Under the pieces are notes generated by a model. That model was not told the DNA's origin. It saw only the letters and a program-made list of their open reading frames with translations, and did no database searches. 35,837 nucleotides of DNA from a virus, in IMG/VR virus record IMGVR_UViG_3300005747_000520, positions 1 to 35,837 of that record. The stretch is one strand, 5' to 3'. Shown here piece after piece: positions 4,135 through 34,724 of this stretch (positions are counted from its first letter, which is position 1; each line of letters opens with the position of its first letter). The position numbers were made by a program, and so were the translations under genes.

Positions 4135-4434
4135 TTATCCAAAACACCCTGAATCGAGTACCGCTTGAAAATCTGCTGTGGTCCAACCTGCGTATTGGGC
4201 GCCTAATTCTGGGCCAATGCCACCCATCTCTTCAGGGTCAGTTGGATGACATTCACCCATTGCCCATCTTTCGAAGTCATCTTTAGGGCCTTGCATGAAA
4301 CGTGCAGCCATTGGCCCGAATTGTGCGGCTTGTGCTTCGTATTTTGCGATGATGTCTTCTACGGTCTTGGGACCCATACTCTCAACAAGAACACTTCTAA
4401 TCATTTTTCGTAATTTACTTTCTCTTATTTGCAT
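4135..4434 (-). CDS. Small protein with capsid-targeting-like N-terminus, 99 aa
   Basis: The ATG at 4434 follows AAAGGAG with good spacing, and a TATAATTA box lies about 40 nt upstream. The N-terminus, MQIRESKLRKMIRSVLVES, is a short basic amphipathic helix ending in V-L-V-E. It closely resembles the starts of several other small proteins in this window and fits the (I/L)-x-E site of T4-type prohead proteases. The rest is acidic and Gly/Met-rich (residues about 45-99), with no recognised domain. By analogy with T4 internal proteins it may be packed in the head and trimmed by the gp21-like protease. It lies in the tail region, away from the head genes, so other roles remain open. Confidence 0.65.
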   Translation of the reverse strand: MQIRESKLRKMIRSVLVESMGPKTVEDIIAKYEAQAAQFGPMAARFMQGPKDDFERWAMGECHPTDPEEMGGIGPELGAQYAGWTTADFQAVLDSGCFG

Positions 4435-4472
4435 ATCTTCGCTCCTTTACGTAATATATGAACAGTCAGGGT

Positions 4473-4480
4473 TAATTATA
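4473..4480 (-). promoter_or_regulatory. Promoter-like box TATAATTA after the tube-gene terminator
   Basis: TATAATTA lies on the minus strand just downstream of the terminator hairpin that ends the tube gene and about 40 nt before the next start codon. A terminator followed by such a box is the arrangement expected for a new transcription unit. The box resembles the T4 late promoter TATAAATA, and I see no -35 element. Confidence 0.5.
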
Positions 4481-4488
4481 CCCGATCT

Positions 4489-4524
4489 AAATAAATGAAA
4501 CGCAGAATCCCGAAAGATTCTGCG
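4489..4524 (-). terminator. Terminator after the tail tube gene
   Basis: On the minus strand CGCAGAATC and GATTCTGCG form a perfect 9-bp stem with a TTTCGG loop, followed by the T-rich TTTCATTTATTT. It lies 26 nt after the tube gene's stop codon and separates the tube gene from the next unit. Confidence 0.85.
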
Positions 4525-4550
4525 CCTTTTGCGAACAAATTGCCTTTGTA

Positions 4551-5039: not shown

Positions 5040-5071
5040 TTTAATTCTCCTGAAAAATTGTATTCATTTAA

Positions 5072-5079
5072 TAACTATA
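5072..5079 (-). promoter_or_regulatory. Promoter-like box TATAGTTA before the tube gene
   Basis: TATAGTTA lies on the minus strand between the second sheath gene and the tube gene, 33-40 nt before the tube ATG, at the same spacing as the other copies. It could give the tube gene extra transcription beyond read-through from the sheath genes. Confidence 0.4.
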
Positions 5080-5085
5080 GTTTAT

Positions 5086-8000
5086 TTAGATTTCCGCACC
5101 AGCATTTGTCACGACGAAGTCGAGAGAGATGAACTCAATAGAGCGAGTCGGCTGGAGGAAGATCTTACCACGGATCGTATTGTTTTCCACATCTTGCTGA
5201 GTCGTGGTTGTTGTATCGATGACAACTTTGTATCGATCCAGACCCTGCTGTTGTTGGATACGTCCAAGAATGGGATTAACTAACGCACTGAATCTTGCAA
5301 GTGTAGATTCGCGATTGGGTTCGAAAAGAACTTGGTTTGCAACCTTTCGAACTTTACGACGAACATCGATCAGCAATCTTCTTACGTTCACTCGATCCAA
5401 AGCAGACTGAGCTTGAAGCATAGTTTTTTGTCCGAAGACAATCACGCTAGAACCAGTTTGTGGGAAAGAAGTAATTGGGTTGATGTCTGAATCGTATAGA
5501 ACGTCCATATTAGATCTGTTAAGTTTAACTGCTGTTTCAATCGTAGAAGCCAAAGCACCGCGAGCAAAACCAGCAGGAGCGTACCAAGGATGCGCAACAG
5601 AGTCATTCAATGACAATGCTCCAAGTACAGCAACTGAAGGAGGTGCAACAACGTTATTTGAACCATCCGCGATTACAAGATCAGGGAAGTAAGTCGCTGC
5701 GAACGAAGTATCCAAGTTTCTGTTAGAAAGATTTTGTGCAGTGTTCGTAACACTTGTTTCTTGCGCTCTTGTAAGAACTAGTTTGTCGTCATGATCGTAT
5801 GCAGGCATATCCATGATGTACAACGCGTCGAAACGATCTTCGGTCTTGTCGATCGCATAGTCAGTGATTCCTGCAGATCTCATGCCGGGAGTAGCGAGCA
5901 ACTGGATGTCTACATCAGATTTTTCTGAAAGAATATCAAGTGCTTTTCTAAACGCAGCCGTCGTAGAACCGTCAGGACCGCCGTAGTAAGCAGAGCCCGT
6001 AGTATCCATCTCACGGAATGCTGCCATCGTACTCATCGAAGCCTTGTCGGCGTCAAGGATGTCTAAACCGTCCCAACCACCTTGCATCGGTACAGAGAAC
6101 TTAAAGAACTTCTTAGAAGCAGAAGAACCAAAGTCTTTAGCAACGTCAAGATAACGATAACCGCTAGATTTGTTATTCCCGTCAGCATCTTGGAAATAGC
6201 TTCCGGAACTGTCCCATGTTTCGCCACTAGCGTTTCCGTCTCGGATGTACACAGCTTCGTGCCATTGCGTAGGATCTACCGCATTACTCGTGTTCCCACC
6301 AACGCACCTGATCCAAAGCTTTTCAAGAGAGAATGCATTGTCGTTGTATTCGTCTGCATCGAGGGAAGCATTTCCTGTAGAATCTGATGCTCCTTTGTTG
6401 TCTCCAACCCACGCTGCTTGCGCTGCAAAGTTTGGATACCACTTAGTGAGATTATCAACGAGTGAAACGATACCAGAATCTCTATTCTTTTCAGCAGCGT
6501 TTGACACCATCTGATTTTGCATACCCCAGTAGAATCTAGAATCAACAACTTTTGTAGCACCTGATCCGACAGATACGCTTTCTCTGAAAGGTAGTGGAGG
6601 TTCAACCAAGTTCTGATAAGAATCACCCATGTCCGACAGTGCTTGACCGTCAAGTACGAGGTGGTTCTTGCCTTGGAAACCAAGAGGCAATGCAGTTGCT
6701 TCCATCTGTCCAGCTTCGACTTGGTCGTTCACTTCAACTCGAACGTATTGTGAATTGTTTGGATACAATCCTTCTGTGACGAGCTTTTGTTTACCGATGT
6801 CTTTTTCAAACTCGAAGAAAGTATTCTGATCTCCGATGACTCTTGCGATGTAACGATCAGATGAAGGATTCAAGTTCACTGCTGAGAACTGTTGCAAGAT
6901 CTGTGGATCCAAGTCAGTGTCGTTTGCAGATCTGATCTGTACGTCAAAAGAACCATAGTCACTTGAAAGATCTGTAGACTTTGTAATGTTTGCGATGGAA
7001 ACTTTCACTTGGCCGTGTCCTACGCTACCAGCATCTAACATGTGGAACTTGAAAAGCTTCTTAGCAGATTCACCAAGAGTCTGTGACATGATCCAAGGAG
7101 TTGCAGCATGTTCGAATCGTTGACGCCAATCCTCGAACGTAGGAGTCCAAGCATCCGCAGTACTATGAACTGTTCCAGAATAATCTGTCACTTCGTTTGC
7201 ACCGGGTCTCAAGATTGCTGAAGCATTACCGTTGTCAACCGATGCAAGAACATCAGGGACATCGTAGTGTGCATACAGATAGTGACCTTTCTCTTGAATC
7301 TTTGTAGGATCAGTATTGAATACTTTTGACAAGTAGATCGGAGAAGTAGTTTCGAAAGAAGCGGTAAGAATCTTTTCGTAAGAATCATTGGAGAAACCGT
7401 TCAATGCGATGACAAAATCACCACTGGCACTAACGCGCCCTAATCCACTTGAATTACCAATGTCTTTATTTGTTCCGTATTCACCGAATGCACCATCTGG
7501 CAGATTAGCCTCTATTAAATCTACATTGTTATCTTCGATTCCGGGAATGACTCCGGATGGGAACATCAATACACCACGAAGGATTCGTTTGGAAGTGGCC
7601 TGACCTAGGTAGTCATTAGCTGGCGATTGACCCGCAGTGTGATTCGCACCTAAGAAGTACACTCGGCCAGCAGGAGAACTTGGGCTGTTTTCTGAGATAG
7701 TAAGTGTTGGAACACTTTCTGCAGAAGAGGTGCCGAGTGCAAAAGCGATCTCGACAGATGTTCCTTGATCAGTAAATGTCAGATCACCCGCTGCAGCCGA
7801 TGGGTTTGGCAAAAATGCTTGAAGCAATAGATCACCATCCGCATTTGTAGTATTTTGAGTTTGCAACGCGGCGTACGCCAACCCAAGCGCAGCATGAATA
7901 GCAGCACTTGTAGCTGCTCCAGCAGCAACAGCGTCAGTATCGACAGCTGAATAAAAACTAGTTGCTGTATCTGCAGTTGCAACGCCTCCTGCGTTTAATT

Positions 8001-9162
8001 CGACAACAATCTCGGCAGTACCGTCGGCACCTACGAGAGTGATTGAAGAATCTGCAGGAACACTGATGTTTGCGTCTACTGTAAAGCTTAATTCCAAACC
8101 AGTTCCATCAGGTGTATTCAATGCATAAGCAACCGCAGGAGTCACAGCAGAGAATGTCACATCTGCTGCAGCAGCGCCAGAAGCGTCTTGTGCAACGAGA
8201 ATAGATGGGTTATTCGCTAGATCTGTTGAATTAAGAGAACCAGCACCGCCTAAGTAAGCTGCACCCGGATTATTCGCAAGATCTGTTGTTGCAATAGACC
8301 AGTCAATTGTAATATCAGCCCCAGCAACAAGGTAAGGAACAACGCCGTTTCCGGATGTATCCCAATCTTCTGCAGCGCCTGAAGGATATAACGTATCTAA
8401 TTCACCCTCAAGAAGTAACGCAATGTCTGCACCAGTTGTTAATCCTGTCGCATCCAATCGAACCAATGTTGCACCAGCAAAGTTGGTATTAATATTGAAG
8501 ATTTCAAAACCACCGTCTGTGATCGCTGTTCCATCATCTGTTCTTGTCCCATATTGTGCATCCATAAAGTACACATAAGATGCAGCTCCGTGAATGTCTT
8601 CGTATGCGATAGTTAGACCATCGTATCCAGCACCATTGTCAGCGATAGATACTGTGAAGATCTCTTGTTGTCCAGCTTCGGTGGGAACAGCAACTACGTT
8701 GTCTGTGTCTGTTGCAACAACCCCAAGTGCATTATCAACACTTCCTCCAGCGTGTGGATTAGCTACAGGTATATCAGCAGAACCATCTGTCTCTAACGAG
8801 GTCTTGCCGATTCTGTCTTTGTCTCTCATGTCTTGCCCGACGATGAATCCAGCGTTTGTCACCGATCCGTCGGAATTACTTTTCTTTCCGTCTCCGACAC
8901 CTAGGACACGAAGATACAAACCACTTCGTGCGTTGCGCATCCATTCATTGACCGCCATCGCACCGAAGTGCTTTCCTTCGGAAGCACCGAAGAGATTCGC
9001 AAAGTCATTAGCTGTTGCGAAGGTGACGGGAACAAATGCAGGTCCTTTTTGTGCGGTACCAACGATCCCTGCTGGAATCCCTTGTGGACGTACACGCCCA
9101 GGTGCCGAGAGATCTAATTCTCTCGTGGTGACACCGGGACTTCGTAAAACTCTTTCTGCCAT
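5086..9162 (-). CDS. gp18: Tail sheath protein B, giant paralogue with Ala-rich insertions, 1358 aa
   Basis: This contractile sheath subunit surrounds the tube. The N-terminus (SPGV, then GIPAGIVGTAQKGPAFVP) and the C-terminus (VIFGQKTM, LDRVNVRRLL, PTRSIEFISLDFVVTNAG) are sheath signatures, shared block by block with the neighbouring sheath A. T4 gp18 has 659 residues, so this protein is about twice the usual size. The excess lies mostly in residues about 130-510. This segment is rich in Ala, Gly, Asp and Thr and looks like beta domains that would decorate the outer tail surface. Within it the motif TDLANNP occurs twice, 20 residues apart. Part of the insertion (ITLVGADGTAEIVVELNAGG and following) resembles a segment of the 284-aa protein at 16056-16910. 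The start has AGGAG 8 nt upstream. Confidence 0.93.
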   Translation of the reverse strand: MAERVLRSPGVTTRELDLSAPGRVRPQGIPAGIVGTAQKGPAFVPVTFATANDFANLFGASEGKHFGAMAVNEWMRNARSGLYLRVLGVGDGKKSNSDGSVTNAGFIVGQDMRDKDRIGKTSLETDGSADIPVANPHAGGSVDNALGVVATDTDNVVAVPTEAGQQEIFTVSIADNGAGYDGLTIAYEDIHGAASYVYFMDAQYGTRTDDGTAITDGGFEIFNINTNFAGATLVRLDATGLTTGADIALLLEGELDTLYPSGAAEDWDTSGNGVVPYLVAGADITIDWSIATTDLANNPGAAYLGGAGSLNSTDLANNPSILVAQDASGAAAADVTFSAVTPAVAYALNTPDGTGLELSFTVDANISVPADSSITLVGADGTAEIVVELNAGGVATADTATSFYSAVDTDAVAAGAATSAAIHAALGLAYAALQTQNTTNADGDLLLQAFLPNPSAAAGDLTFTDQGTSVEIAFALGTSSAESVPTLTISENSPSSPAGRVYFLGANHTAGQSPANDYLGQATSKRILRGVLMFPSGVIPGIEDNNVDLIEANLPDGAFGEYGTNKDIGNSSGLGRVSASGDFVIALNGFSNDSYEKILTASFETTSPIYLSKVFNTDPTKIQEKGHYLYAHYDVPDVLASVDNGNASAILRPGANEVTDYSGTVHSTADAWTPTFEDWRQRFEHAATPWIMSQTLGESAKKLFKFHMLDAGSVGHGQVKVSIANITKSTDLSSDYGSFDVQIRSANDTDLDPQILQQFSAVNLNPSSDRYIARVIGDQNTFFEFEKDIGKQKLVTEGLYPNNSQYVRVEVNDQVEAGQMEATALPLGFQGKNHLVLDGQALSDMGDSYQNLVEPPLPFRESVSVGSGATKVVDSRFYWGMQNQMVSNAAEKNRDSGIVSLVDNLTKWYPNFAAQAAWVGDNKGASDSTGNASLDADEYNDNAFSLEKLWIRCVGGNTSNAVDPTQWHEAVYIRDGNASGETWDSSGSYFQDADGNNKSSGYRYLDVAKDFGSSASKKFFKFSVPMQGGWDGLDILDADKASMSTMAAFREMDTTGSAYYGGPDGSTTAAFRKALDILSEKSDVDIQLLATPGMRSAGITDYAIDKTEDRFDALYIMDMPAYDHDDKLVLTRAQETSVTNTAQNLSNRNLDTSFAATYFPDLVIADGSNNVVAPPSVAVLGALSLNDSVAHPWYAPAGFARGALASTIETAVKLNRSNMDVLYDSDINPITSFPQTGSSVIVFGQKTMLQAQSALDRVNVRRLLIDVRRKVRKVANQVLFEPNRESTLARFSALVNPILGRIQQQQGLDRYKVVIDTTTTTQQDVENNTIRGKIFLQPTRSIEFISLDFVVTNAGAEI
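8206..8291 (-). repeat. Short direct repeat, 60-nt period, inside sheath B
   Basis: Near-identical stretches around TTATTCGC(T/A)AGATCTGTTG begin near 8209 and 8269. They encode TDLANNP twice, exactly 20 residues apart. The pair probably reflects a recent in-frame duplication in the surface-exposed insertion. Confidence 0.75.
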
Positions 9163-9206: not shown

Positions 9207-12200
9207 TTACTCGAAAGAAACTCCAGCATTTGTTACGATGAAGTCAATCGCAATAAATTCGATGGTTCTTGTCGGGATTAACACGATCTTACCGTTTAAT
9301 CTGTTTTCCTCTGCGTCAGCAGGCGTGTTATTTGAATCATCGCAGATAACTCTGAATTTTTCAATACCCGCCTGAGCTTGGATCAATGCCAATCGTGGTT
9401 GAACCAAGTTCACAAATCGTGCACGAGTTTGAGGTGTATTCTGTTCGAATAGAACCACGTTTGCGACTTCTACAACTTGTCGCTTCACTTCCAGAAGCAG
9501 TCTTCGTACATTTACACGATCCAAAGAGCTCTGGTTGATTTGCATGGTTTTCTGTCCGAAGATTACGAAACCGCCATCAGGGAAGTTTGCAATCGGGTTG
9601 ATTCTTCTTTCATATAGATCATCTCTGTCTCCTACAGACAATCTTGTTCTTACGTTCTCTACGAAGTCGAGAGCGCCTCTATTGAATCCAGCAGGTGCAA
9701 ACCAAGGATAACTTACGTTATCGTTATATGCCAACGCACCAAGTGCAGGAATAGACGCAGGAACAAGTACTCTTCGGTTATTGACAGGATCTGTGATGTA
9801 TACATCTGGGAAGTAAGAAGCAACGTAGTTATTATCGATCGCTCTTGCTTCAAGGTCATTTGCAGTGTATTCAACATCTGGTCTAGAACCTGTGTCGAAG
9901 ATTCTGTTATCATCGCCGTTCTTGTTAGGAATGTCCATCACATACATTGCCATTGAGTAATCTCTTACCTTTCCAGCAGCATAGTCTGCAACGTATGGAT
10001 CACGAATTCCCGGGATTGCCAAGATGTTCGTGCGAACCGTCATTGGATCTGTCATTTGGTTGATTGCTTGTCTATAAGAGGCAATTACGTTGTTGTCTTT
10101 ACCCTTACCCATCATTGAACCATCGTCGGTACCTTCAAGTCCGAGGCCGCCGGATATTGTATCAGCTGCTTTTCCACCCGATTCTGTAGATGCCGCTTTG
10201 TCATTCAAGTCTTCGATGTCTTCGTCAAGAATATTAAGTCCGTCCCATCCGCCGTAGAAGATGTTGGTGAACTTCGCAAACTTTGCAAACTTATTGAAGT
10301 TATTCGCAGTGGCATCATGAACCAACGAAGCGAAAGTGACTCGATTAAGAGTTGGTGTGGCGTAAGTGTCAACGATTTCGTAAGTAGCAGCATCTGGAGC
10401 ACCGTTACGTACGTAGCATGCTTCTCTCATTTCATCAGAAGCAGATCCGACAGATGCGATAGAGCTTTGAGCCAAAGCAACACGAGCAAGAGTGAATTTG
10501 TTCTCGTTGAAGGTGTCAGCGTTATCTACGAAAAGACCTGAAGCAGTCGTTCCACCAGCAAGACCCATCAATTTAGTGTATGCTCTTGCAAGCTTTGATT
10601 GTCGACCTGAAAGGTTTGACTGAAGGATAGAATCACTTCCTGCGATGTCTGCAGATTCGATGCGAGAGAGTTTAACTCCAAAGTATATTCTAGAGTCGGC
10701 TCTTTCGTTATTTCCTGCTTCACCTTGTCTGGATAGGTCAGAACTTTTCACTTTACCTTTTGTCGCCTTGAACGTGAAAGGAAGAGGAGGAATAATAGAT
10801 GCATCTGCAACAGTGTGTGCACTATTAAGAAGCCCTGCAGTTTTAAGAACTGGTATACCACGGAAACCAAATGGAAGTGCGTTTGCTGGTACCTGATCTG
10901 TATATACAGCATCATTCATCACGATACGGATGTTCAGAGATTGATTAGGGTATCTACCAGAGATTACTAATCTTCTTTCTTCTGCAAGTTCCGCGTCGAA
11001 GTCGAATACAACTTTCTTATCACCAATTTTTCTTGCAACAAAGTTTTCACTCTTAGGATCCAATGAAACTCCTACGAATCTTTCTAGAACTTGAGGATTA
11101 AAATCAGAATCACCGAATCTTCTTACGAGCACATCGAATGTTCCGTAAGGGTAGTTAGGATCAGTACTTTTCTTAATATTTGCGATAGAAACTTTGAATG
11201 ATTCGTTTGCAACATGTCCATCAGACAAGCATTCGAAGTGGAACAGGTCATATTCTACTTTACCGAACGGCTGTGAGATAAACGAAGTGGTACGAGGTGA
11301 TTGGTATCTTGCATTGAAAAGACCATACTGTTCTTGTACAGACGTAATACCTTGTGCTTGCGCAGTTTCGTATTGAGCGTCACTACCAGTTAGCACCGTG
11401 CTGTCTCCTTCAGAGATCTCAATATCTGCTGAATCTTTGACGACAGCAAGTTCTTTTTCAATAGAGAAGTCTAACCAAAGCAAATGCCCTTCAGATTGGA
11501 ATTTCTTTGGATCAGTGTTCAGAATCTTCCCAATGTATTTTGTGTTGTCAGGATCCAACGATACAAGCATGGTTCTAGAAGATGATCCCTCAAGAGTAAG
11601 CCAGAATTGTCCTCCATCCTCATTGGATGTTGCAGCTTGGCCCGTTGCAGCCGCAGCTGAGTCACCGATGGTGATATGATGATCTTTTGCGTTGATGATC
11701 ATCGCTCTAATCAATTTCGCATCGTTGTCAGCAAAGCTGTTCAACGAATCTTTAAGCCCGGTGAAAGACCCGTTATCTGTGAATACGGGATAACCGATGT
11801 CAGATTCTGCAGTGATTTGATGTGTTGCTGCAATGAACTGTACCGATCCATCCAAAGATCCAACGACAGGAGGAACTGCCTTGAACCCTGCGTTCTTTGC
11901 GAAGCCATGAGCTTTAGTGTTTGAAAAGTCCGTTGATGTCGCATTGGCACCAGCACCAAGAACTCTCATGAAAGTCACAGATTGTCTGTGCTTTAGCCAT
12001 TCTCTTACCGCGTATGGTGCGAATTTTTCTGGTGTTAGAGTTCCGAATCTATTTTCGAAATCCTTAAACGTGCCTAACGTTAAAGGGACGAAGGCCGGCC
12101 CCATTTGCGCAGCGCCGATGATGCCCGCTGGTACTCCCGTTGGTTGTTGCTTTTCCGCAGTCAACTCGATCTCTTGCTCGAAGAAGCCGGGTGATTTGAA

Positions 12201-12215
12201 AGTATTTTCAGCCAT
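9207..12215 (-). CDS. gp18: Tail sheath protein A, 1002 aa
   Basis: This is the first of two sheath genes. The N-terminus (GVPAGIIGAAQMGPAFVP, then KDFENRFG) and the C-terminus (VIFGQKTMQINQSSLDRVN, then PTRTIEFIAIDFIVTNAG) are typical of contractile sheaths. It lacks the largest Ala-rich insertion of sheath B but is still about 340 residues longer than T4 gp18. The start has AAGGAG about 8 nt upstream. It follows the gp15-like terminator gene with 44 nt between them and precedes sheath B by 44 nt, so all are probably co-transcribed. The sheath fold contracts on injection, and its conserved C-terminal domain forms the inner shell that contacts the tube. Whether A and B mix in one sheath cannot be told from the sequence. 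Confidence 0.95.
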   Translation of the reverse strand: MAENTFKSPGFFEQEIELTAEKQQPTGVPAGIIGAAQMGPAFVPLTLGTFKDFENRFGTLTPEKFAPYAVREWLKHRQSVTFMRVLGAGANATSTDFSNTKAHGFAKNAGFKAVPPVVGSLDGSVQFIAATHQITAESDIGYPVFTDNGSFTGLKDSLNSFADNDAKLIRAMIINAKDHHITIGDSAAAATGQAATSNEDGGQFWLTLEGSSSRTMLVSLDPDNTKYIGKILNTDPKKFQSEGHLLWLDFSIEKELAVVKDSADIEISEGDSTVLTGSDAQYETAQAQGITSVQEQYGLFNARYQSPRTTSFISQPFGKVEYDLFHFECLSDGHVANESFKVSIANIKKSTDPNYPYGTFDVLVRRFGDSDFNPQVLERFVGVSLDPKSENFVARKIGDKKVVFDFDAELAEERRLVISGRYPNQSLNIRIVMNDAVYTDQVPANALPFGFRGIPVLKTAGLLNSAHTVADASIIPPLPFTFKATKGKVKSSDLSRQGEAGNNERADSRIYFGVKLSRIESADIAGSDSILQSNLSGRQSKLARAYTKLMGLAGGTTASGLFVDNADTFNENKFTLARVALAQSSIASVGSASDEMREACYVRNGAPDAATYEIVDTYATPTLNRVTFASLVHDATANNFNKFAKFAKFTNIFYGGWDGLNILDEDIEDLNDKAASTESGGKAADTISGGLGLEGTDDGSMMGKGKDNNVIASYRQAINQMTDPMTVRTNILAIPGIRDPYVADYAAGKVRDYSMAMYVMDIPNKNGDDNRIFDTGSRPDVEYTANDLEARAIDNNYVASYFPDVYITDPVNNRRVLVPASIPALGALAYNDNVSYPWFAPAGFNRGALDFVENVRTRLSVGDRDDLYERRINPIANFPDGGFVIFGQKTMQINQSSLDRVNVRRLLLEVKRQVVEVANVVLFEQNTPQTRARFVNLVQPRLALIQAQAGIEKFRVICDDSNNTPADAEENRLNGKIVLIPTRTIEFIAIDFIVTNAGVSFE

Positions 12216-17461: not shown

Positions 17462-17983
17462 TTATGAAAGGGCTGCTAATTCTGATTTGAATAGGGCCAA
17501 CGCTGCAGCGTAGAGTTCTTTGGTTTTATCTTCTCTTTCTTCTTCCGGAAGCTCATCTACGATTTTCTTAAAAGATGAATATCCCTTAATCGTATTCGTG
17601 ATGTTCTTCTGGATGTCGCCAAGATCGGATTTCATTTCATCTCGGAATGCTTCCATTGCATTTTCATCAGCATCGATCTTTTCGCCTAGGTCATTCCAAG
17701 CCGTTACTGTCGCATCTTTAATCTTGGTAGCTTGTTCCATACCTTTCGAAAACATACCGCCGATTTGCTTGAGGAACTTTCCAAGACCTTCTTCTAGAAC
17801 TTGGTCACATGCGTAATTTCTGCGAGCTTCTGCAAGAATAGCTTTTCTCTTCTTAGCCTCAACAATGCGTCGTTGCTTGGCAGTAAGCTTACGAGTTCTT
17901 TTACGAGCTGGCTTCTTAGTCCCATAAACAATTGCGTGTTCTTCTGCAATAATTCTCTTCAGTTGTCTCTTTGTAATTTTCAT
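17462..17983 (-). CDS. Internal head protein candidate with capsid-targeting-like tag, 173 aa
   Basis: The start MKITKRQLKRIIAEEHA is a short basic helix ending in I-I-A-E, which fits the (I/L)-x-E cleavage site of T4-type prohead protease. A very basic segment follows (residues 20-55, repeated Lys/Arg). The C-terminal body is helical, amphipathic and charge-balanced (FLKQIGGMFSKGMEQATKIK, then SSFKKIVDELPEEERED). T4 internal proteins likewise carry a short N-terminal targeting peptide cut off during maturation, and the mature part is packed or injected with DNA. The basic stretch suits DNA contact. The gene lies directly after the major capsid gene and its terminator, with AGGAG upstream of the ATG. 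The function of the mature part is unknown. Confidence 0.65.
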   Translation of the reverse strand: MKITKRQLKRIIAEEHAIVYGTKKPARKRTRKLTAKQRRIVEAKKRKAILAEARRNYACDQVLEEGLGKFLKQIGGMFSKGMEQATKIKDATVTAWNDLGEKIDADENAMEAFRDEMKSDLGDIQKNITNTIKGYSSFKKIVDELPEEEREDKTKELYAAALALFKSELAALS

Positions 17984-18056: not shown

Positions 18057-20006
18057 TTAGATGATGTTCATGTCCAAACAAGTTACAGTACCGTAGAAGT
18101 CAGAACGAACCATCTTCTTACCGTAACGAGTCATCACACCCTTACGAGGAGTGAAGTCCTCAGGAGCGAAGATTGTTGGAGTAACAATAAGAGGTACGTA
18201 TGGAGCATACACATAACCGGTTTCAAGGTAAGAACCACCTTTGTATCCGATCAACACTTTGTTGCGTGGGAAGTAAGGATCTTTGTAAACAGTGAATCTG
18301 TTAGAAAGATTACCGATCTTCTCAGCACCGATAGAGAGAGCAGAAGCTTGTCCCTGTCCGTCGATAGAGTATGAAGGCTTGTACATTACGCTTGATTCGA
18401 AGATTGTAGCAACATCTGGACCGATAACGATGAAGTTCGCAGAACCACGAAGAGTTTTTCTGTGAATGATGTTAGCAGCGTCGATGATGGTTTCTACAAG
18501 AGTTTCGTACCAATCTCTTACTGTACCAGTGAACTGAGGTCCAGGACGAAGAGAAGTGTTACGTGGAATCTCAACACCAGTCAACTTGTTTACAAACTTA
18601 CCAGGAGCACGTGACCAGAACAAGTTAGCACCGTTAGCTTGAGTGAGGAGGTCGTTAAGAACTTCACGATCCAATTCAAGAGCAATTTGCTCAGAAAGGA
18701 TTTGAGTCAATTCAACTTCCGCATCCAACGAGTGGTACGCGTTCAAGTCTTGAGCAAGCTCTGGAGACCACTTAGCTTTCAACTTACGAGATACAGCTGT
18801 AACTGCCAAAGATTCGATCTTGATGTCGATTTCTGGAATAACAGGTGTTTGCGTTGGTGAAGAACTGTCTACCAAAGTGGATTCGAATGAAGGAATAGTC
18901 AAAGCTGAACCGTCATTGTCGTCGATGTCCAAAGTAGAAGAAACAGGAGCACTCAAGTTGATTGCTGAATCTGCAGCAGGCGTTGCTGTTGAGTCTGAAA
19001 CCAACACTGGGAAACAGATGTACTTACCGCCGATTGGATTCACAGTGATTTTCCCACCTGTAACAGCTCCAGCAATGTCAACTCTTTTGGTGTGACGTCG
19101 AAGGTTTTGAATGCCTTTTCCTGATTGGAAACCAGCAGCTGAACAATCAACAAGACCAAGACTAGTATCTTCATAAAGAACAAAGTCTTGCAACATTGTC
19201 AAGTCAAATTTAGCAGCGAAATTATCGCCATCCATGTTTGCTACAGGGGAAAGGATGAAAAGCAAACTTGAGCCAGAGTTGTCAGCAAGATACTGAGCAA
19301 CAGCAGAGTCAAAGTCAACCAATCGACCAACAGCGCCAGTCAAAGAAGTAGCACCACCTAGTTCAACTGTTGTACCATTAAGGCCAACAACGTCCCATGC
19401 ACCAGTAGAAGCATTCACAGCACCGATTGCCATGTCCTTATCGGCACTCACTGCTGGAAGAGCTGCTTTCACTTCGTTGGCTTGTTCGTCATGACGACGA
19501 GAATAACCAGAACCGAGAAGATCGTAGTGACCACCAGTTGCCAAAGAACCAGATTGGATTCCTTTACCAGTAGGGTTGTTGTAGATAGATTGGCCTGCAT
19601 CGTAAGTAGAAGCTGTACTACCGTTGCTTGTACCGTTGTCAGCGCCACCTTGATCTGTACCATAGGTGTAATCTAAGTAGAACAGAAGACCAGAAGGAAG
19701 AGACATTGGTTGGATAGAAACCAATTCGTTAGCAACCAATCCACCGAATACACGACGTACAATTGGGAATGCTACATTTTGGAAACCACGAATGTCACCA
19801 GCTGCGCCGGGAGATCCAAGAGTATTTGTTTCGCGAAGCAATTGTGCAGCTTGGTTTTCAAGCATAACAGCCATGTTTTCGCGGTTGTAGCCCTGAAGGC
19901 CACGAAGAAGACCAGTTCGGTTCCACTTTTCAGTCAATCGTTGGTGTTGTGCACCCATGTGACGCTGGCGGATACCTTCGGTCAAAGTTTTCATAGTAAA
20001 TGACAT
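18057..20006 (-). CDS. gp23: Major capsid protein (gp23-like)
   Basis: This protein forms the hexameric HK97-fold lattice of the head. The region GFQNVAFPIVRRVFGGLVAN followed by ELVSIQPMSLPSGLLFYLDY aligns in style with T4 gp23 just after its processing site. The C-terminal half contains LTQILSEQIALELDREVLND and RKGVMTRYGKKMVR. At about 650 residues it is longer than T4 gp23 (521); the excess is a Ser/Asp/Ala-rich insertion around residues 185-400, perhaps exposed on the shell. The prohead protease probably cuts after LLRE (about residue 59), which lines up with T4's cut at residue 65. I prefer the ATG at 20006, 7 nt after GGAG; an ATG two codons earlier is the alternative. Scaffold upstream and terminator downstream agree with this call. 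Confidence 0.95.
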   Translation of the reverse strand: MSFTMKTLTEGIRQRHMGAQHQRLTEKWNRTGLLRGLQGYNRENMAVMLENQAAQLLRETNTLGSPGAAGDIRGFQNVAFPIVRRVFGGLVANELVSIQPMSLPSGLLFYLDYTYGTDQGGADNGTSNGSTASTYDAGQSIYNNPTGKGIQSGSLATGGHYDLLGSGYSRRHDEQANEVKAALPAVSADKDMAIGAVNASTGAWDVVGLNGTTVELGGATSLTGAVGRLVDFDSAVAQYLADNSGSSLLFILSPVANMDGDNFAAKFDLTMLQDFVLYEDTSLGLVDCSAAGFQSGKGIQNLRRHTKRVDIAGAVTGGKITVNPIGGKYICFPVLVSDSTATPAADSAINLSAPVSSTLDIDDNDGSALTIPSFESTLVDSSSPTQTPVIPEIDIKIESLAVTAVSRKLKAKWSPELAQDLNAYHSLDAEVELTQILSEQIALELDREVLNDLLTQANGANLFWSRAPGKFVNKLTGVEIPRNTSLRPGPQFTGTVRDWYETLVETIIDAANIIHRKTLRGSANFIVIGPDVATIFESSVMYKPSYSIDGQGQASALSIGAEKIGNLSNRFTVYKDPYFPRNKVLIGYKGGSYLETGYVYAPYVPLIVTPTIFAPEDFTPRKGVMTRYGKKMVRSDFYGTVTCLDMNII

Positions 20007-20035
20007 TGTCATTCTCCTTTATATTTGATTTGAAG

Positions 20036-21736
20036 TTATTTTTTGATACCAGCAAGAACTGCCCAACGATCCAACTCAACACCATTGTTGCGAGGCGCCT
20101 GTCCCGACTGGAGTGATCTGTTAGAATAAGAAGTTCTTGATTCATTGAGAGTAGCTTTCGCTTTCTTTGATTCGTTCAACTTGCGGTTGTTCAAAGATTC
20201 ATTCAATGAGGTGAAAAGCAACTTGGCTTCGCGTTGTGTCTTGGCATTGTCCATCGCCTCGATAATAGCACGCTGCTGCTTGTTGTTTAGTGAATGCGAC
20301 TGAAGTAATTTAGTAACCATCAGCAATTTCGCATTGAATAGATTTGATTCTTTAAGTTCTGCTTTGGCAGCCTTAGCTACACGAGCATTCTTACGAGCAA
20401 CTCTTTTTGTCTCGTTAAGAGCACGCTTGGTGCGTCTGTGCGCACGAGCTTCCATAACAGCTCCTTTCTTGATAGAACCACCACCAAAGTGACCTGCCAT
20501 CTTAGAAGCTTGTCCTTGGTTTGAGGTTGCATTTCCGTATGAGCCTAGTTCTTCAGCCAAAGCATTCAGAAGTGTGTTTTCGTCGACTTCAACGAACATG
20601 TCTTTAGAAGCCTTTCCACCACCGAAGTGCTTTGCCATAGCTTTTGCTTCGCCTTCAGCCAAACGTCTGCGACGTCGTGCACGGGCGATTCGAGCTTTAC
20701 GTGATTCATTTACTTTTCTAGAAGGTCTACGAGAAGTAGTACGACGACGACGTGAAACACCAAGTGCACGACGCAACATTGCTTCGTTTACTTCGACAAC
20801 TTCGTCATCTTCTGAACATTCATCTTCGTCTTGCTCATCTGATTCTCTCATAGTCTCATAAGTTTCATCGCCCATTTCGTCAGATTCTTCAAGTTCATCT
20901 TCATCATCGTCTTCATCGTCGAAGTCAAGATCTTCATCATCTTCCATATCGAGTTCTTCGCCACCAGCCGCAGAAAGCGTGCCGGCCTCTAGGCCAAGAG
21001 CATCTTCAAGAGCACTAGCATCTACTTCGATAGTATCGCCACCCTCTTCGGCTCCCTCATCATCGAACTCCATATCGTCGAATTCCATTTCTTCGCCAGC
21101 TTCTCCGTCTTTGCCTTCGAACAACCAGCTGTTTTTACGTCTTCTCATAGTTTTACTCTCCTTTAAGATAACTGATAAGTTGTTTGCCAGTCGTTTGTTC
21201 TGGCGGTTTTCTGTAATTATAAGAGCCTTACGCAAAATATTTAGCTCTTTACGAATTTTTTGTCGTTGTTTTCGAGTTTTTGCTTCACTCAACGCCTTAA
21301 CTAAACGAATAGCACGATGTCTTAGGAGGTGGTTTCTCTTTCCTTCGACAGTGATATTCACGTGGACAGATTTGTTCTGTCTTTCGTCTTCGTATTCTTC
21401 GATTCCTGATTCTTCTTCATCAGGAATAACTTCTATTGAAGCCAATCCGTCTGAATCGACATCCAATGGTGCCGGTGCAAGATCCATCTCTTCAGGTCCA
21501 ATGTCTTCTATTTCTTCAGAATCCTCATCGAACATATCCATTGCATCGGGAGAGTCAACTAATCCTCCCTCCAGATCATCGGAAAAAAGATCTTCGTCGC
21601 CTTCAGCTATTTGCCTTTCGATCAATTGTCTGAGCTTTGGAGTAACGGCCTCGATAATACGATTTTTGGCGTTTTGTTCCGCAGTCTCTCTCAATTTACG
21701 GGCATCGGCTATGGCGTCTTTGTATAAACTACTCAT
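20036..21736 (-). CDS. gp22: Prohead core scaffold (gp22-like), 566 aa, highly charged
   Basis: It lies directly upstream of the capsid gene, as in T4. Composition is extreme. Long acidic stretches (about 45-120 and 220-320) alternate with Arg/Lys-rich ones (about 125-200, 325-365 and 425-460). A helical C-terminal domain (AKLLMVTKLLQSHSLNN and onward) ends in ELDRWAVLAGIKK. At least ten sites of the type L/I-x-E are scattered through it (for example LSEA, ILKES, LNETK, LKESN, LNESL), as expected for a core protein the gp21-type protease destroys during maturation. Short internal repeats occur: MA(K/G)HFGGG twice, and (V/I)EVD/N followed by LxxAL three times. It is about twice the length of T4 gp22 (269). 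The ATG has GGGGAG upstream. Some parts may survive as internal peptides. Confidence 0.75.
   Translation of the reverse strand: MSSLYKDAIADARKLRETAEQNAKNRIIEAVTPKLRQLIERQIAEGDEDLFSDDLEGGLVDSPDAMDMFDEDSEEIEDIGPEEMDLAPAPLDVDSDGLASIEVIPDEEESGIEEYEDERQNKSVHVNITVEGKRNHLLRHRAIRLVKALSEAKTRKQRQKIRKELNILRKALIITENRQNKRLANNLSVILKESKTMRRRKNSWLFEGKDGEAGEEMEFDDMEFDDEGAEEGGDTIEVDASALEDALGLEAGTLSAAGGEELDMEDDEDLDFDDEDDDEDELEESDEMGDETYETMRESDEQDEDECSEDDEVVEVNEAMLRRALGVSRRRRTTSRRPSRKVNESRKARIARARRRRRLAEGEAKAMAKHFGGGKASKDMFVEVDENTLLNALAEELGSYGNATSNQGQASKMAGHFGGGSIKKGAVMEARAHRRTKRALNETKRVARKNARVAKAAKAELKESNLFNAKLLMVTKLLQSHSLNNKQQRAIIEAMDNAKTQREAKLLFTSLNESLNNRKLNESKKAKATLNESRTSYSNRSLQSGQAPRNNGVELDRWAVLAGIKK
21214..21221 (-). 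promoter_or_regulatory. Possible internal promoter box TATAATTA in the scaffold gene
   Basis: TATAATTA occurs inside the scaffold coding sequence, with the same eight bases as the intergenic copies. It could add transcription of the capsid gene or be chance in AT-rich coding DNA. Confidence 0.2.
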
Positions 21737-22608: not shown

Positions 22609-22610
22609 GT

Positions 22611-23092: not shown

Positions 23093-23404
23093 TTATTTAA
23101 GTTTGCGAAGGATTTTTTTCTTCGCAAGGTTTTTGTTTCTACGAACTTTACGTGCTTCTCTAACTAATTTTCTATACTGTCGACGCATACGAGCTTCTTT
23201 GATTTTCATCGCTTTGTACATGTCCAAGTCTTGCTCGAGTGTATCTGCAAATCCGTCAGCATCGACTTCTTCTGCTTCTACTTTAGACACATCTTCGAGT
23301 TCACCACTAAGTTTAGCGGCTTCTTTCATTACAAATCTTCTGAGTGCTGCCGGAGTCATTTTTCTTGCGACAGGTTTACGAGTTTTTCGTGTATTTCTTC
23401 TCAT
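23093..23404 (-). CDS. Basic helical head-core protein candidate, 103 aa
   Basis: I start at the ATG at 23404, 6 nt after GGAG; a longer frame to 23431 would run into the promoter-like box. The N-terminal 15 residues are Arg/Lys/Thr-rich. Then come AALRRFVMKEAAKLS and a central acidic stretch (ELEDVSKVEAEEVDADGFAD). A long basic helix follows (MKIKEARMRRQYRKLVREAR) and ends in KKKILRKLK. The alternating charge blocks are like those of prohead core proteins and DNA-packing internal proteins. F-V-M-K-E-A could be a poor protease site. It is the first gene after a 60-nt gap with a TATAATTA box, so it may begin the late head transcript leading to scaffold and capsid. Confidence 0.6.
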   Translation of the reverse strand: MRRNTRKTRKPVARKMTPAALRRFVMKEAAKLSGELEDVSKVEAEEVDADGFADTLEQDLDMYKAMKIKEARMRRQYRKLVREARKVRRNKNLAKKKILRKLK

Positions 23405-23464: not shown

Positions 23465-23914
23465 TTATTCTGATTCTCCGAATGCGATTGCAGCCCAGTT
23501 TCCTGCACCTTCAAAGATGTCACTCATATCTTCGACATTGTTGACAACTTGTGCTGCGTTGTCAGCAGGGACTCTTCTGCCTTCTCCCTTCGTTTGTTCT
23601 TGCAAAGTGGTTTTTGCGGTGTCTGCGAATATTGATGCCATCATTGGATCATCTGTCAGTTCATTTACAGCTGAATCTACATATTCATTGCGAACATATT
23701 TTTCCCTAATAGGCTTCTGACTGTGTGTAGATCTTTTTACTGCTGCAGCAAGATCCCGATTTGGAGAAGGCCGGGGTGCACGCCTTTTTGGTTGACGTGC
23801 CTCCCGGATCGGCTCTTCGTCGTACCCTGGCTCAGAATCGATGCCTTCAAATAATATCTCTAACAAGCATTCTTTAACTATTTCTTTAAGAACTGAACGT
23901 TTAACTTTAGCCAT
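23465..23914 (-). CDS. Tagged head protein candidate, 149 aa
   Basis: The start MAKVKRSVLKEIVKECLLEI continues to LFEG. It gives a basic amphipathic helix followed by two possible prohead-protease sites, CLLE and ILFE. The rest is charged and poorly ordered: an Arg/Pro-rich segment (residues 38-55), then polar helices (DSAVNELTDDPMMASIFADT), and an end in NWAAIAFGESE. The start fits the capsid-targeting tag shared with four other proteins of this window. It lies between the 191-aa beta-rich protein and the basic core protein, close to the protease gene. A role as processed core or internal protein is inferred. The ribosome binding site (AGGAAG) is reasonable. Confidence 0.62.
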   Translation of the reverse strand: MAKVKRSVLKEIVKECLLEILFEGIDSEPGYDEEPIREARQPKRRAPRPSPNRDLAAAVKRSTHSQKPIREKYVRNEYVDSAVNELTDDPMMASIFADTAKTTLQEQTKGEGRRVPADNAAQVVNNVEDMSDIFEGAGNWAAIAFGESE

Positions 23915-23926: not shown

Positions 23927-24502
23927 CTATGGTATTGGTGCTACTGCGTCATTTTCTACGAGGACTGTAGCGGCAGTCTCTATTCCAACGTTGGAACCAT
24001 CACTAGTTTCTACAGTGAATTGAGATGATGGAACACCTGTGAGACCGGCGATGACCTCTATATGTTCGACTGCATTCACATCATCTAGTCGAAAATATAA
24101 TTTGCTAGCTTTCATTTCCAAACGAACACCATCTACGAATGCTAAGTCTACAAAAGAAGACGCTCCAGAAGCAACGCCCGTTTCGGACATTCCTACGAAA
24201 ACCTTGTCATTAGGTATTTTCGAATTTCCAGAGTGTGCAGTCATCATAATCCACCGGGAAACGTATGGAAACTCAATAGATATAATATCACCATCGTCCA
24301 AAGCGATATCCGTCGAGGTGTCATCAGCATCTGGGTAACTCGTATTATTGATGGCTATCGTTTGAAAAAACGGATAACCACTCGATTGGTATTCTGCAGT
24401 GTTGCCTACATGTGTGTAAGGATGATTCATAGTACCTGCAGCTGTTGCATTTGACCCAAATGCACCATTTGGATTTCTGTCTCTATCGTAATAACCTGCC
24501 AT
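23927..24502 (-). CDS. Beta-rich virion protein candidate, 191 aa
   Basis: The ATG at 24502 overlaps the protease stop (TAATG) and uses GGAGGAAAG at the protease 3' end, so it is translationally coupled. The N-terminus (AGYYDRDRNPNGAFGSNATA) is polar. The body is a series of strands with few charges (DIISIEFPYVSRWIMMTAHS, then KLYFRLDDVNAVEHIEVIAG) and a Ser/Thr-rich end. It looks like a compact beta-sandwich of the kind used for decoration or head-surface proteins. No family is recognised. Placement directly after the prohead protease suggests a head function; in T4 this position holds the scaffold, which here lies several genes later. Confidence 0.6.
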   Translation of the reverse strand: MAGYYDRDRNPNGAFGSNATAAGTMNHPYTHVGNTAEYQSSGYPFFQTIAINNTSYPDADDTSTDIALDDGDIISIEFPYVSRWIMMTAHSGNSKIPNDKVFVGMSETGVASGASSFVDLAFVDGVRLEMKASKLYFRLDDVNAVEHIEVIAGLTGVPSSQFTVETSDGSNVGIETAATVLVENDAVAPIP

Positions 24503-25113
24503 TATTCTTTCCTCCACGACATAATGTCATTGAATATTCTATCGACTCTATCACTTTTCGTAAAATGACGATTGAGATCGTTTTCATTTATTTCTTTACC
24601 CTCTTTCATCATGAAAGCACCGGGAGTGCTTGGCTCTGTTACAAAGTCCCAACAGATAAGTTGAAAATCGTCTTGTACGACTTGGTAGTCGCCTTCTTTG
24701 CGAGTGCTCCCAACACCACGTGATGATATACCAAGAGTTACGCCAGAATCGACTAGAGACTTAAGGATTTTCCCAGAAGGCGTATCCAAAATCTCGACTG
24801 ACCCGTAACAGATGTCACCTTGCATATAAGCTTCTCTCACAATGTGAGATGCGTTCTTCAATTCTACAACAGATGAATCAGGATGATCGAGTTCACCAAG
24901 AGCTCTATTTTCTGCAATAAACTTTTGGTAGTTTCTGACTTCACGTTCTAGAATGTCTATTGGATACACTCGGCCGTTCTGATTAAGTGTGTTCGCTTTT
25001 TGTAAGATCCCACGCATGATATAACGACCACCATTCGAAGATGCTTCTGTGATTGTCTTCTCTTTATCGTATTCCCACGCTGACCATTCAGTAATTAATT
25101 TGAGTCTACTCAT
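24502..25113 (-). CDS. gp21: Prohead core protease (gp21-like)
   Basis: This serine protease matures the prohead by cutting scaffold, capsid and internal proteins after (I/L)-x-E. The catalytic pattern of the T4 gp21 family is visible: His77 in GELDHPDS, Ser130 or Ser131 in GISSRGVGS, and Asp156 in ICWDFVTEPSTPGA. An I-T-E-A sequence at residues 21-24 could be a self-cleavage site. At 203 residues it is close to T4 gp21 (212). The ATG lies directly after the stop of the preceding gene, which contains the ribosome binding site. It is encoded between a gp67/68-position protein and virion proteins, and its substrates are encoded downstream, as in T4. Several short tagged proteins in the window are likely substrates. 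Confidence 0.92.
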   Translation of the reverse strand: MSRLKLITEWSAWEYDKEKTITEASSNGGRYIMRGILQKANTLNQNGRVYPIDILEREVRNYQKFIAENRALGELDHPDSSVVELKNASHIVREAYMQGDICYGSVEILDTPSGKILKSLVDSGVTLGISSRGVGSTRKEGDYQVVQDDFQLICWDFVTEPSTPGAFMMKEGKEINENDLNRHFTKSDRVDRIFNDIMSWRKE

Positions 25114-33200: not shown

Positions 33201-33357
33201 TACCTTGTGTCTTCGAATGAACGATGTCTCCTGCGATAACGATTGCATCAGGATTGATTTCTCTACATTGTGAGAACATGTCTTCAAATGAGCGTCGGTA
33301 TTCCTCATGGCGTTGTAATCCACGCCAATGAACGTCAGCTATATGTACTATCTTCAT
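30226..33357 (-). CDS. Fused Mre11-Rad50 (SbcD-SbcC, gp47-gp46) recombination nuclease, 1043 aa
   Basis: One polypeptide carries both subunits of the DNA end-processing complex. Residues 1 to about 350 form a calcineurin-like nuclease: D8 and H10 in IADVHW, IAGD (41-44), GNHD (79-82), LGDIH and YPGS. Residues about 370-1043 form a Rad50/SMC ATPase: Walker A GLFGQNRCGKSS (398-409), a Q-loop FAAQGQMNAF, long coiled coils, and a CGDSFPTC hook (C720, C727; spacing six rather than two). The signature region is CGSGMEKM, Walker B MFVVDEGFGALD (980-991), and the H-loop SHVE (H1017). In T4, gp47 and gp46 are separate and drive recombination-dependent replication and host DNA breakdown. I chose the ATG at 33357 (MKIVHIADVHW), with CGGAG upstream; 12 codons earlier is the alternative. 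A TATAATGT box precedes it. Confidence 0.92.
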   Translation of the reverse strand: MKIVHIADVHWRGLQRHEEYRRSFEDMFSQCREINPDAIVIAGDIVHSKTQGISPELIDSLAWWFTEMHKICPVHVMLGNHDGLVLNTDRQDAISPIVNMLNLPRLYLYKGTGVYPDPHLPDVEWCVYCPFDTAGFDNLRPSGTRPISIALYHGSVWGSHTDGDFMLEGETKMSRFREFTFTMLGDIHKRQQMDRDGRIHYPGSTIQQNYGETPGKGFLCWHINDPGDWKVEFHPVAHENPFVTVDWQGNIVSTITECTKAWPSGARYRIRANEQLDPKTQRKVSTVLRREYDAHEVVFKLVPKKQLAEEEQIEKLEVLDLSNNETHKELIREYGSDEGFDEEFWIECDEIMDKTIKELDYSIPAAKKWSLRKMNFDNMFGYGHDNTIDFGKLSGVVGLFGQNRCGKSSIPGTVMYALYNSNDRGLTSNAHVVNYRKKEGNADLTFSVNSKLYRLERQSVRYTSRRNGTDGAQTYLNLFEVDEDGCILRDLSGEQRRETEKELRDLIGTPDEFMMTSFAAQGQMNAFINKGSTDRKKLLSTFMGLDVFEEINKHIRKEGEGIKGILRRMQEKDWVAEIRSKKQKIGQLHETNVELKMETDQLKERLVILQQQANNESDGDFVDPSVLHRAESNLQTKQSQLRKLRNSIETTKDEIESLEVKFGKYDNIKATFPIEGFRRRLENLEDLNRSLMKQKNLLDKENRILKGQKHSVSLLKEVPCGDSFPTCKFIAESHRNKTLMNEQRVLVTELREEVAKMKENIEDLQGEGLRNRIAKYESMLRQEAEDKITHARLESSIEATNLRINRLVKDIEELNEHISVLKLKLNADKSDELKRLQRLIENVSTQIHSKDSSYMSNIQKVGKYTADIEQLKKDQLEYDRLQMEYKVYDFLQRATSWKGIPTQVMAKQLPAINAELAKILSDVTGFTIELEVDERNTDIFINYGDTRRPVECGSGMEKMVSSMALRVAMSNVSSLSKSDMFVVDEGFGALDPQNIEAVVGLLHRLKRYYRLILVISHVEVVKDSVDDVIVITREGMDSKVKYE

Positions 33358-33380
33358 AGGTCTTCTCCGGTTAGATAGAT

Positions 33381-33388
33381 ACATTATA
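33381..33388 (-). promoter_or_regulatory. Promoter-like box TATAATGT before the recombination gene
   Basis: TATAATGT lies on the minus strand 24-31 nt before the ATG at 33357, in the gap after the tagged 216-aa gene. It differs from the TATA(A/G)TTA boxes only in its last bases and may represent an earlier expression class. No -35 element is clear. Confidence 0.4.
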
Positions 33389-33405
33389 CTCACTTATCTC
33401 GCAGT

Positions 33406-34056
33406 TTACATTCTTAGATAATTTTGATAATGCTGAGTCATTTGTGGCGTTGCATATTTTTGCAACTTGGGATAAACTGCTTCATAGAATTTATCAACTT
33501 GCATCGTTTTGGCTGTCTTGCTCCCGTAGGGTACAAGAACTTTCATGCATTCAACAATTTCATCGTGCCAAAGTGACAATTCTTCTAGAAGAACTGGTGC
33601 TGGCATGCCGTCTTTCGAATGTTTGTAATTTTTGAAAGGGAAATAAACTTCAGCCATCGGTTGTGCCCATGTCGCTCTCATTGCTCCTTTGCGGATGCGC
33701 ATCGAAAGATAGATTCCTGCAGGCATATCGGATGACAATGCTTCTGGAAAAATAGCGAGCCTTAAATCATTATTCTTTCTCTTCGACCACGTATAACCCC
33801 AAGAACCGTATCTAACTACAGCTCCTTCGCTTTCATATGAAGGTGAAAATTCACCCATATAATTCTCAGTCATCCAACCTTTCTGTGAAGGTATCTGCGG
33901 GAATAGCCAATCTCTTTGACATTGGAAAAACCAAGCGTTCCATTTACTCCATGCTTGTTCGTATCCAGGTGACCCGTATGTCACGTAAGGTGGTTCTTTC
34001 GGTATATTTGTATTTTCTAAGAGTATCATTCTCACCATCTGCCTGAGTGCTTTCAT
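33406..34056 (-). CDS. Tagged protein, 216 aa, function unknown
   Basis: The start MKALRQMVRMILLENT is a short basic amphipathic helix ending in I-L-L-E, a fit to the prohead protease site. After it the chain is rich in Trp, Tyr and Pro (YVTYGSPGYEQAWSKWNAWF, then YGSWGYTWSKR), so a compact domain is likely. This is followed by a helical C-terminal part (LLEELSLWHDEIVECMKVLV) and TPQMTQHYQNYLRM. No known domain is recognised. The ATG overlaps the preceding gene's stop (TAATG), so the two tagged proteins form a translationally coupled pair between primase and the recombination nuclease. If the tag is a capsid-targeting signal, this is a candidate head-packed, possibly injected protein encoded far from the head genes. 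Confidence 0.62.
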   Translation of the reverse strand: MKALRQMVRMILLENTNIPKEPPYVTYGSPGYEQAWSKWNAWFFQCQRDWLFPQIPSQKGWMTENYMGEFSPSYESEGAVVRYGSWGYTWSKRKNNDLRLAIFPEALSSDMPAGIYLSMRIRKGAMRATWAQPMAEVYFPFKNYKHSKDGMPAPVLLEELSLWHDEIVECMKVLVPYGSKTAKTMQVDKFYEAVYPKLQKYATPQMTQHYQNYLRM

Positions 34057-34724
34057 TATACATCCTGCGTCATTGTTTGGCGTCCTGGGAGTGCATCGGT
34101 CAATGCTGCTTCTACATCTTCGATTGCTTCGTCACCTTTCGCGACTTTAGAAAAGTACGCTGCGGCTTTTTGAATACGATCACCAAAAGCTTCGAGACCT
34201 TCGATACCGGCATTGATTCTTGCGATAATTTGCGCAAACGTTCCAACCCGATTCACTGGTGTCGAGGAGAAAGAATAGTACATCTGTGCATCTTGTGGTA
34301 CACCAGCGACTCTTGCGTATGCTCCAGGGATGGTATATTCTATCTTAAAGTATACTCGACCTTTTGCTCGAGGAGCGAACCTGAACGTCTTACCAGACTT
34401 TTGAGTAGGATCTGGCTCAGTTTTCACAGAAGTGAACACACTAAGTTTCATTCCATTCTGAAATGTCTTTCTCCACACGATCTCTTCGCCATCTGACAAT
34501 TGTCTAATCGGTTTTGTTCTAAAACCTTGTTGGGCTTTTGTCATGTTCTTGTAGAGATCTTGAGCTAACAACTGACGGTGTTTGTCGTTTCTACCATCAT
34601 ATTTGCCCTGGTTGGTTTGAATCTGATTGGGAACCCACTTCCTATCTTTTCTACCTTTTCTAGATCTTCTGGCTTCTTGCAGAATGTTTCGTATCACACG
34701 CCTTAATTCGTTTATTGTTTTCAT
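34056..34724 (-). CDS. Tagged basic protein, 222 aa, function unknown
   Basis: I start at the ATG at 34724, 6 nt after GGAG, giving MKTINELRRVIRNILQEARR. This is the clearest copy of the tag, ending in I-L-Q-E then Ala, and close in style to the T4 internal protein leader. A TTG four codons earlier is the alternative. Residues 18-60 are Lys/Arg-rich and probably disordered. The middle (GEEIVWRKTFQNGMKLSVF, then GRVYFKIEYTIPG) is beta-rich, with a helical C-terminus (FAQIIARINAGIEGLEAFGD). A TATAATTA box lies 25-32 nt upstream. The family is not recognised. The tag, the position away from the head genes and the basic segment suggest an internal protein that may enter the host with the DNA. Confidence 0.62.
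   Translation of the reverse strand: MKTINELRRVIRNILQEARRSRKGRKDRKWVPNQIQTNQGKYDGRNDKHRQLLAQDLYKNMTKAQQGFRTKPIRQLSDGEEIVWRKTFQNGMKLSVFTSVKTEPDPTQKSGKTFRFAPRAKGRVYFKIEYTIPGAYARVAGVPQDAQMYYSFSSTPVNRVGTFAQIIARINAGIEGLEAFGDRIQKAAAYFSKVAKGDEAIEDVEAALTDALPGRQTMTQDV

Follow-up and report, generated by a model that had tools for sequence, protein, structure and literature searches.

Our results show that a basic, amphipathic helix recurs as a common tag at the extreme N-terminus of proteins with unrelated bodies in large marine Far-T4 myoviruses, in 196 of the 2,021 predicted proteins of five records of ~280 kb (31-52 carriers per genome), that this tag ends in the sequence signature of the phage's own prohead protease site, in common with the substrates of that protease, and that it is absent from control sequences; cleavage itself was not observed. 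It is likely that the tag represents a T4-like capsid-targeting sequence employed at an unprecedented scale, with packing, cleavage and injection being inferred rather than demonstrated.

The window, i.e., the whole stretch of DNA analysed here, is a 35.8-kb IMG/VR fragment of a Far-T4-type myovirus. It encodes T4-type capsid, terminase and gp21 genes and is nearer to Rhodothermus phage RM378 and Flavobacterium phage immuto than to the T-evens or cyanophages, although no tree was built; the best tblastn matches of its capsid protein were to the huge phage LR756508, immuto, Microcystis phage Mel-JY01 and RM378. Using the prohead protease as query, we retrieved 80 relatives, and the genome-scale counts are based on five related records of 273-293 kb that were read in pieces. 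Genes were called by a simple ORF-plus-RBS method, with starts computed, not measured. Since the five genomes are mutually related, their counts cannot be treated as independent, although the majority of bodies are unshared. The relevant features of the window are the following (↓ marks the putative cut):

34056..34724, minus strand: tagged protein, 222 aa; tag MKTINELRRVIRNILQE↓A at 34674-34724
33406..34056, minus strand: tagged protein, 216 aa; tag MKALRQMVRMILLE↓N at 34015-34056
24502..25113, minus strand: gp21-type prohead protease, phrog_207 (E 3e-50); predicted tag-processing enzyme
23465..23914, minus strand: tagged head-module protein adjoining the protease; tag MAKVKRSVLKEIVKECLLEILFE↓G at 23846-23914
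23093..23404, minus strand: sixth tagged protein, in the head module; MTPAALRRFVMKE↓A, tag region (end RRFVMKE↓A) at 23321-23404
20036..21736, minus strand: acidic prohead scaffold with 20 Phi-x-E↓[ASGTQN] sites; predicted docking partner and substrate
18057..20012, minus strand: major capsid protein, gp23 type; propeptide at 19830-20012 with end LLRE↓T, the same site signature as the tag
17462..17983, minus strand: tagged protein downstream of the capsid gene; tag MKITKRQLKRIIAE↓E at 17942-17983
4135..4434, minus strand: tagged 99-aa protein; tag MQIRESKLRKMIRSVLVE↓S at 4381-4434

A preliminary description had reported a tag on at least five scattered proteins of the window (34056, 33406, 23465, 17462 and 4135) and a gp21-like protease encoded alongside them. 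Both claims held; the N-termini of all five were confirmed on the minus strand, each opening with ATG behind a good ribosome-binding site. It had omitted the sixth carrier, the head-module protein at 23093-23404, where the motif follows a short basic lead-in and relatives read 'MSKIRKLTPSLLRKIVLEEKRRIIRE' and similar. The position-specific (PSSM) scores of the five were 27.8 (17462), 18.9 (23465), 15.7 (4135), 13.2 (34056) and 9.3 (33406), the last falling under our cut-off of 11, and the terminase N-terminus scored 14.1, a false positive.

The tag of the 34056 protein, for which a low-confidence structure model gives a helix at residues 4-22, is kept in L306 (NELRHAIRSILSE↓A) and L307, and the tag plus basic stretch of the 17462 protein is kept in L318, L319 and L006. 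A body homologous to the 33406 protein carries the other tag flavour in G002_537 (MKVTRRQIREAIRRVITE↓S), the swap being MKALRQMVRMILLEN in the window vs. MKVTRRQIREAIRRVITES in G002_537. The 23465 protein, with five protease-type sites within 149 aa, stays beside the protease in most relatives long enough to show this, and its position recalls, by analogy only, the T4 core proteins gp67/gp68; two tagged genes adjoin the protease in nearly all relatives. The sole relative found for the 4135 protein aligns over residues 4-31, which are mostly tag. No function is claimed for the two largest tagged proteins of the window, because their AlphaFold2 models were poor (pLDDT 43 and 60) and the better of the two had no significant match in Foldseek.

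A few other observations on the window and its relatives are recorded here in their own right. The product of window 22012-22608 has a tag-like helix at its C-terminal end (EDALRECIRLILLRKL); given that T4 Alt and gp21, too, undergo cleavage close to the C-terminus, a C-terminal version of the tag is possible. The adjoining large proteins at 5086-9162 and 9207-12215 (1358 and 1002 aa) have the same N- and C-terminal sequence features and are apparently the products of duplicated tail sheath genes. In L055:14729-18584 and L038:14992-19075, the major capsid gene is present as two diverged tandem copies within one phage.

The genome-wide search used an iterated profile with an 11-residue core, scored within the first ~26 residues, and a profile was adopted because the bare 22-aa tag had matched nothing as a tblastn query against phage records, probably due to the low-complexity filter. 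It matched 204 of 2,058 proteins (five relatives plus the window), as opposed to 2.3 shuffled N-termini, 5.4 random internal windows and 5 C-termini at the same cut-off; that is, the enrichment is strictly N-terminal and about 90-fold over shuffling. Excluding terminase large subunit false positives gave the 196 carriers, which are clustered in runs of up to 15 neighbours, far above chance, and whose tags have a mean net charge of +3.4. Identical tag peptides are encoded by different codons within one genome (the seven QLRRIIKE copies in G005 are seven DNA sequences), a pattern that points to selection at the peptide level rather than to recent copying of DNA. Hence, the tag observation of the preliminary description is confirmed at a scale far beyond its five carriers, while the single motif it proposed held only in part: there are at least two flavours instead, the main ones being 'MKITKRQLRRIIKE(E..LLxE)' and 'MKxLRxYIRxLLxE', and both close in hydrophobic-x-Glu.

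The tag also extends beyond these five genomes. A DNA pattern for the tag alone identified at least 120 IMG/VR stretches, and all 24 contigs of 80 kb or longer tested among these matches bear tags (2-33 each). A 43-sequence tag profile gave 24 matches in the 484-kb phage LR756508 and two in immuto, a cultured phage with at least one clear carrier (gp080, MKKSQLRQIIKE↓A), and none in T4, KVP40, P-SSM2, S-H38, HTVC008M, phiKZ, RM378 or LR756511; no clear use of the tag was seen in Mel-JY01 and RM378, and 177,635 distinct PDB sequences contained no profile match. Separately, a further recurring N-terminal pattern ending in hydrophobic-x-Glu was noted ('RMQKLAGIITE↓S' and 'WCKLAGILQE↓Q'; L276:6676-7140, which is immuto gp083, and G005:176272-177561), which may be an additional flavour.

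The end of the tag matches what the phage's own protease is expected to recognise, since the capsid propeptide and the scaffold bear the same signature. Hydrophobic-x-Glu (Phi-x-E) occurs at residues 9-32 in 196 out of 196 carriers and at residues 9-20 in 98% of them, compared to 22% of untagged proteins at residues 9-20. As the position of Phi-x-E is partly built into the profile, tags with a spacer were examined separately: in those with an EEK/EEY-type extension, the site lies at residues 17-31, beyond the scored core, in 45 of 47 cases vs. 25% for untagged proteins. The residue after the tag Glu is enriched in Ala, Ser and Gln (in tags without the extension, Ala 24, Ser 20 and Thr 7, out of 78), and the tag P1' residues A, S, Q and T are those of the capsid propeptide, whose ends in 41 relatives read L-(R/K)-E followed by A (21), S (8), Q (5) or T (4). 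The 20 sites in the window scaffold compare with a shuffled mean of 5.9 (maximum 12), and scaffold homologues (n = 66) have 3.2 sites per 100 residues vs. 0.74 genome-wide, an about fourfold enrichment. Within the carriers, such sites are densest at residues 9-32 and no more frequent than background beyond that, from residue 33, indicating that the tagged bodies are spared. The claim of the preliminary description that the tag is fitted to the phage's gp21-like protease is therefore supported by independent sequence tests (capsid propeptides and scaffold).

Tag and protease also occur together. The gp21-family (S77) protease is encoded by the same phage as the tags (phrog_207 in the window, with Pfam Peptidase_S77 matches for its orthologues in relatives). 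When the 24 large contigs, selected by tag alone, were checked for protease, capsid and terminase, a gp21-type protease was found in 15 and a T4-type capsid in 14, and all 14 capsid-positive contigs were also protease-positive. In the remaining nine, protease and capsid gene are both missing, as is the terminase in eight, and the tag spacing of one of them (G015) is that of G027, which has protease and capsid; for these reasons, the nine probably represent fragments.

What the tag is attached to is diverse. Grouping the 194 bodies that exceed 75 residues by homology gave 144 groups, 105 of them singletons, so that the unrelatedness of the remaining sequences, as stated in the preliminary description, held broadly; one body family has 14 tagged members. 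A scan of 120 tagged bodies matched just 15 PHROG and 17 Pfam families, whereas a length-matched untagged set matched 95 and 74, respectively, rich in replication, repair and metabolism, which indicates that the tag marks a distinct class of accessory proteins, poor in replication and housekeeping genes. The preliminary description had held that its idea would be refuted by a motif equally common in non-virion proteins; that comparison was run and the refutation failed (15 vs. 95 PHROG families). The tagged families include a zeta-toxin-like kinase, GNAT, PAP2, HAD, HD, polynucleotide kinase, ribosome modulation factor and RNA-polymerase ADP-ribosylase. Homologous bodies may bear either flavour, HAD- and HD-type bodies are also found untagged, and tagged bodies are acidic (median -4.7 per 100 aa). 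The tagged protein G002_174903 matches the ModA/Alt-type ADP-ribosyltransferases (E 8e-10), a family that also finds two T4 genes. Judged from sequence alone, the bodies likely resemble accessory host-takeover proteins, including this T4 ModA/Alt relative.

Several individual assignments need separate mention. One of the 120 scanned proteins (set A2) matches ribosome modulation factor (PF04957, E 1e-4); ribosome modulation factor is a translation shut-down protein. ADP-ribosyltransferases guessed by eye in G004 and G005 were not confirmed by Pfam or PHROGs, the G004 protein giving a weak GNAT match instead, and neither was a guessed isochorismatase. In LR756508 (L289:17697-23576), an array of related proteins with T4-like N-termini of 8-10 residues (M[KR][LF]K..L.E) adjoins the capsid gene; 'LYRGT'-type motifs suggest ADP-ribosyltransferases, an enzyme family that Pfam and PHROGs did not confirm.

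Under the capsid-targeting model, the helix, about 14-27 residues long, would dock its carrier onto the acidic core that the scaffold forms during prohead assembly, the gp21-type protease would cut behind the tag-terminal hydrophobic-x-Glu, as with the capsid propeptide and scaffold, and the freed body would remain in the mature head, leave with the DNA at ejection and act on the host bacterium ahead of phage gene expression. The carrier set would comprise a few head-module core proteins near the protease plus dozens of fast-changing cargo proteins. The window scaffold has a net charge of -29 and includes 60-residue blocks that reach -25 and -29, and with basic tags and an acidic scaffold, electrostatic docking is plausible by inference. 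The idea of the preliminary description, a capsid-targeting code for head packing and perhaps injection, is supported to this extent, with docking, packing, cleavage and injection all remaining inferences.

Several points speak against this reading. No virion proteomics was found for any tag-bearing phage; the tagged bodies are acidic, unlike the T4 internal proteins, described as basic (PMC9026906); homology to the tag of T4 is not shown; the terminase large subunit, a protein not anticipated within the head, is also picked up by the profile at its N-terminus; and nine of the 24 tag-bearing contigs, the fragment-like ones without capsid, show no protease. Further, the L307 homologue of the 34056 protein (L307:1309-2157) has its tag internal, behind an N-terminal extension of ~66 residues. 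The last point is not fatal because the propeptide that gp21 takes off the T4 capsid protein is itself 65 residues long (PMC9026906). The extra L307 domain appears winged-helix-like by eye.

Alternatively, the tag might be a prohead-core signal only, its carriers entering and being processed as an assembly or size-setting core rather than as host-delivered effectors. Consistent with this, the protease and scaffold genes flank two tagged genes of the head module, a position in which core proteins would be expected, and one head-module carrier has several further protease sites in its body. However, structural core parts would not be expected to number 30-50, to change fast and be poorly conserved, or to contain enzyme domains (zeta-type kinase, GNAT, HD, HAD, PAP2, ADP-ribosyltransferase), as the tagged bodies do, and protease-site density past residue 33 is at background; we consider this alternative unlikely. 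Less probable still, and in our view very doubtful, is that the likeness to protease substrates is coincidental and the helix directs its carriers to another destination, such as the membrane, nucleoid, ribosome or a phage-made compartment. The helix is indeed basic and amphipathic (+3.4), and no partner has been shown; yet this alternative leaves unexplained the fixed Phi-x-E, the P1' preferences matching capsid propeptide and scaffold, and the retention of Phi-x-E behind variable spacers. A third alternative, in which the tag is merely the conserved start of a single paralogous family that has expanded, or of a DNA element copied recently, is all but ruled out despite the runs of up to 15 tagged neighbours and the 14-member body family, given the 144 groups and 105 singletons among 194 bodies, several unrelated domains, either flavour on the same body and identical peptides on different codons within one genome.

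The capsid-targeting reading has its closest counterpart in T4, where the first ten residues of IPIII are enough to direct packing and are removed by gp21, and where Alt, like the internal proteins, is ejected (PMC9026906). Like the T4 signal of IPI-III and Alt, the present tag is a short N-terminal peptide with an M-K start and a gp21-type hydrophobic-x-Glu end, on unrelated bodies that include ADP-ribosyltransferases, in a phage with a gp21-family protease. Unlike it, the tag is a longer, different basic helix (about 14-27 residues vs. 10), with 31-52 carriers per genome vs. a handful, and the bodies are acidic rather than basic. Homology to the T4 tag is not shown because our profile (A3) has no match in the T4 genome, and only the M-K start and Phi-x-E end are alike. 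In phage P1, at most 30 N-terminal residues of DarB suffice as a head signal directing an injected protein into the head (PMC9024508), but no common sequence was found among Dar N-termini, in contrast to one tag across dozens of proteins here. Phages of the SPN3US/phiKZ type (prohead protease gp245) likewise pack many proteins into the head and cut some of them (PMC10052503), although 42 head proteins are uncut there and phiKZ has no tag match. Head-packed ADP-ribosyltransferases and polyvalent effectors of contractile-tail phages are similarly predicted to be injected, host-modifying enzymes (PMC9503650), a review predicting the former from context, but they are recognised via MuF/portal fusions or gene context and not through a common removable N-terminal tag.

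The idea of T4-type tags carrying various proteins in T4 relatives has already been stated (PMC9026906). In the open-access literature searched, including a Far-T4 survey and a paper on marine Bacteroidetes Far-T4 phages, the tag is not described, and searches for the tag string and for capsid targeting in metagenomes returned nothing relevant. What is new is a different tag, dozens of carriers per genome and, with injection inferred, a listing of injected proteins from sequence only. A bolder reading, towards which we lean by a modest margin, is that in large Far-T4 and some huge phages each virion carries 30-50 injected effectors (8-15% of the genes), all defined by one removable N-terminal address; the set would be open-ended and secretome-like, a new effector being recruited simply by gaining the tag.

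Phage-injected proteins are known for very few phages, and virion proteomics is normally required to find them; if the bolder reading is true, reading the tag would list a phage's injected proteins straight from its sequence. Should the tag be a packing address, it would name injected proteins by the dozen in each genome across uncultured marine and huge phages, the many tagged proteins without known relatives would become candidates for early host takeover and counter-defence, and a new, longer packaging tag would be available for comparison with the T4 and P1 signals.
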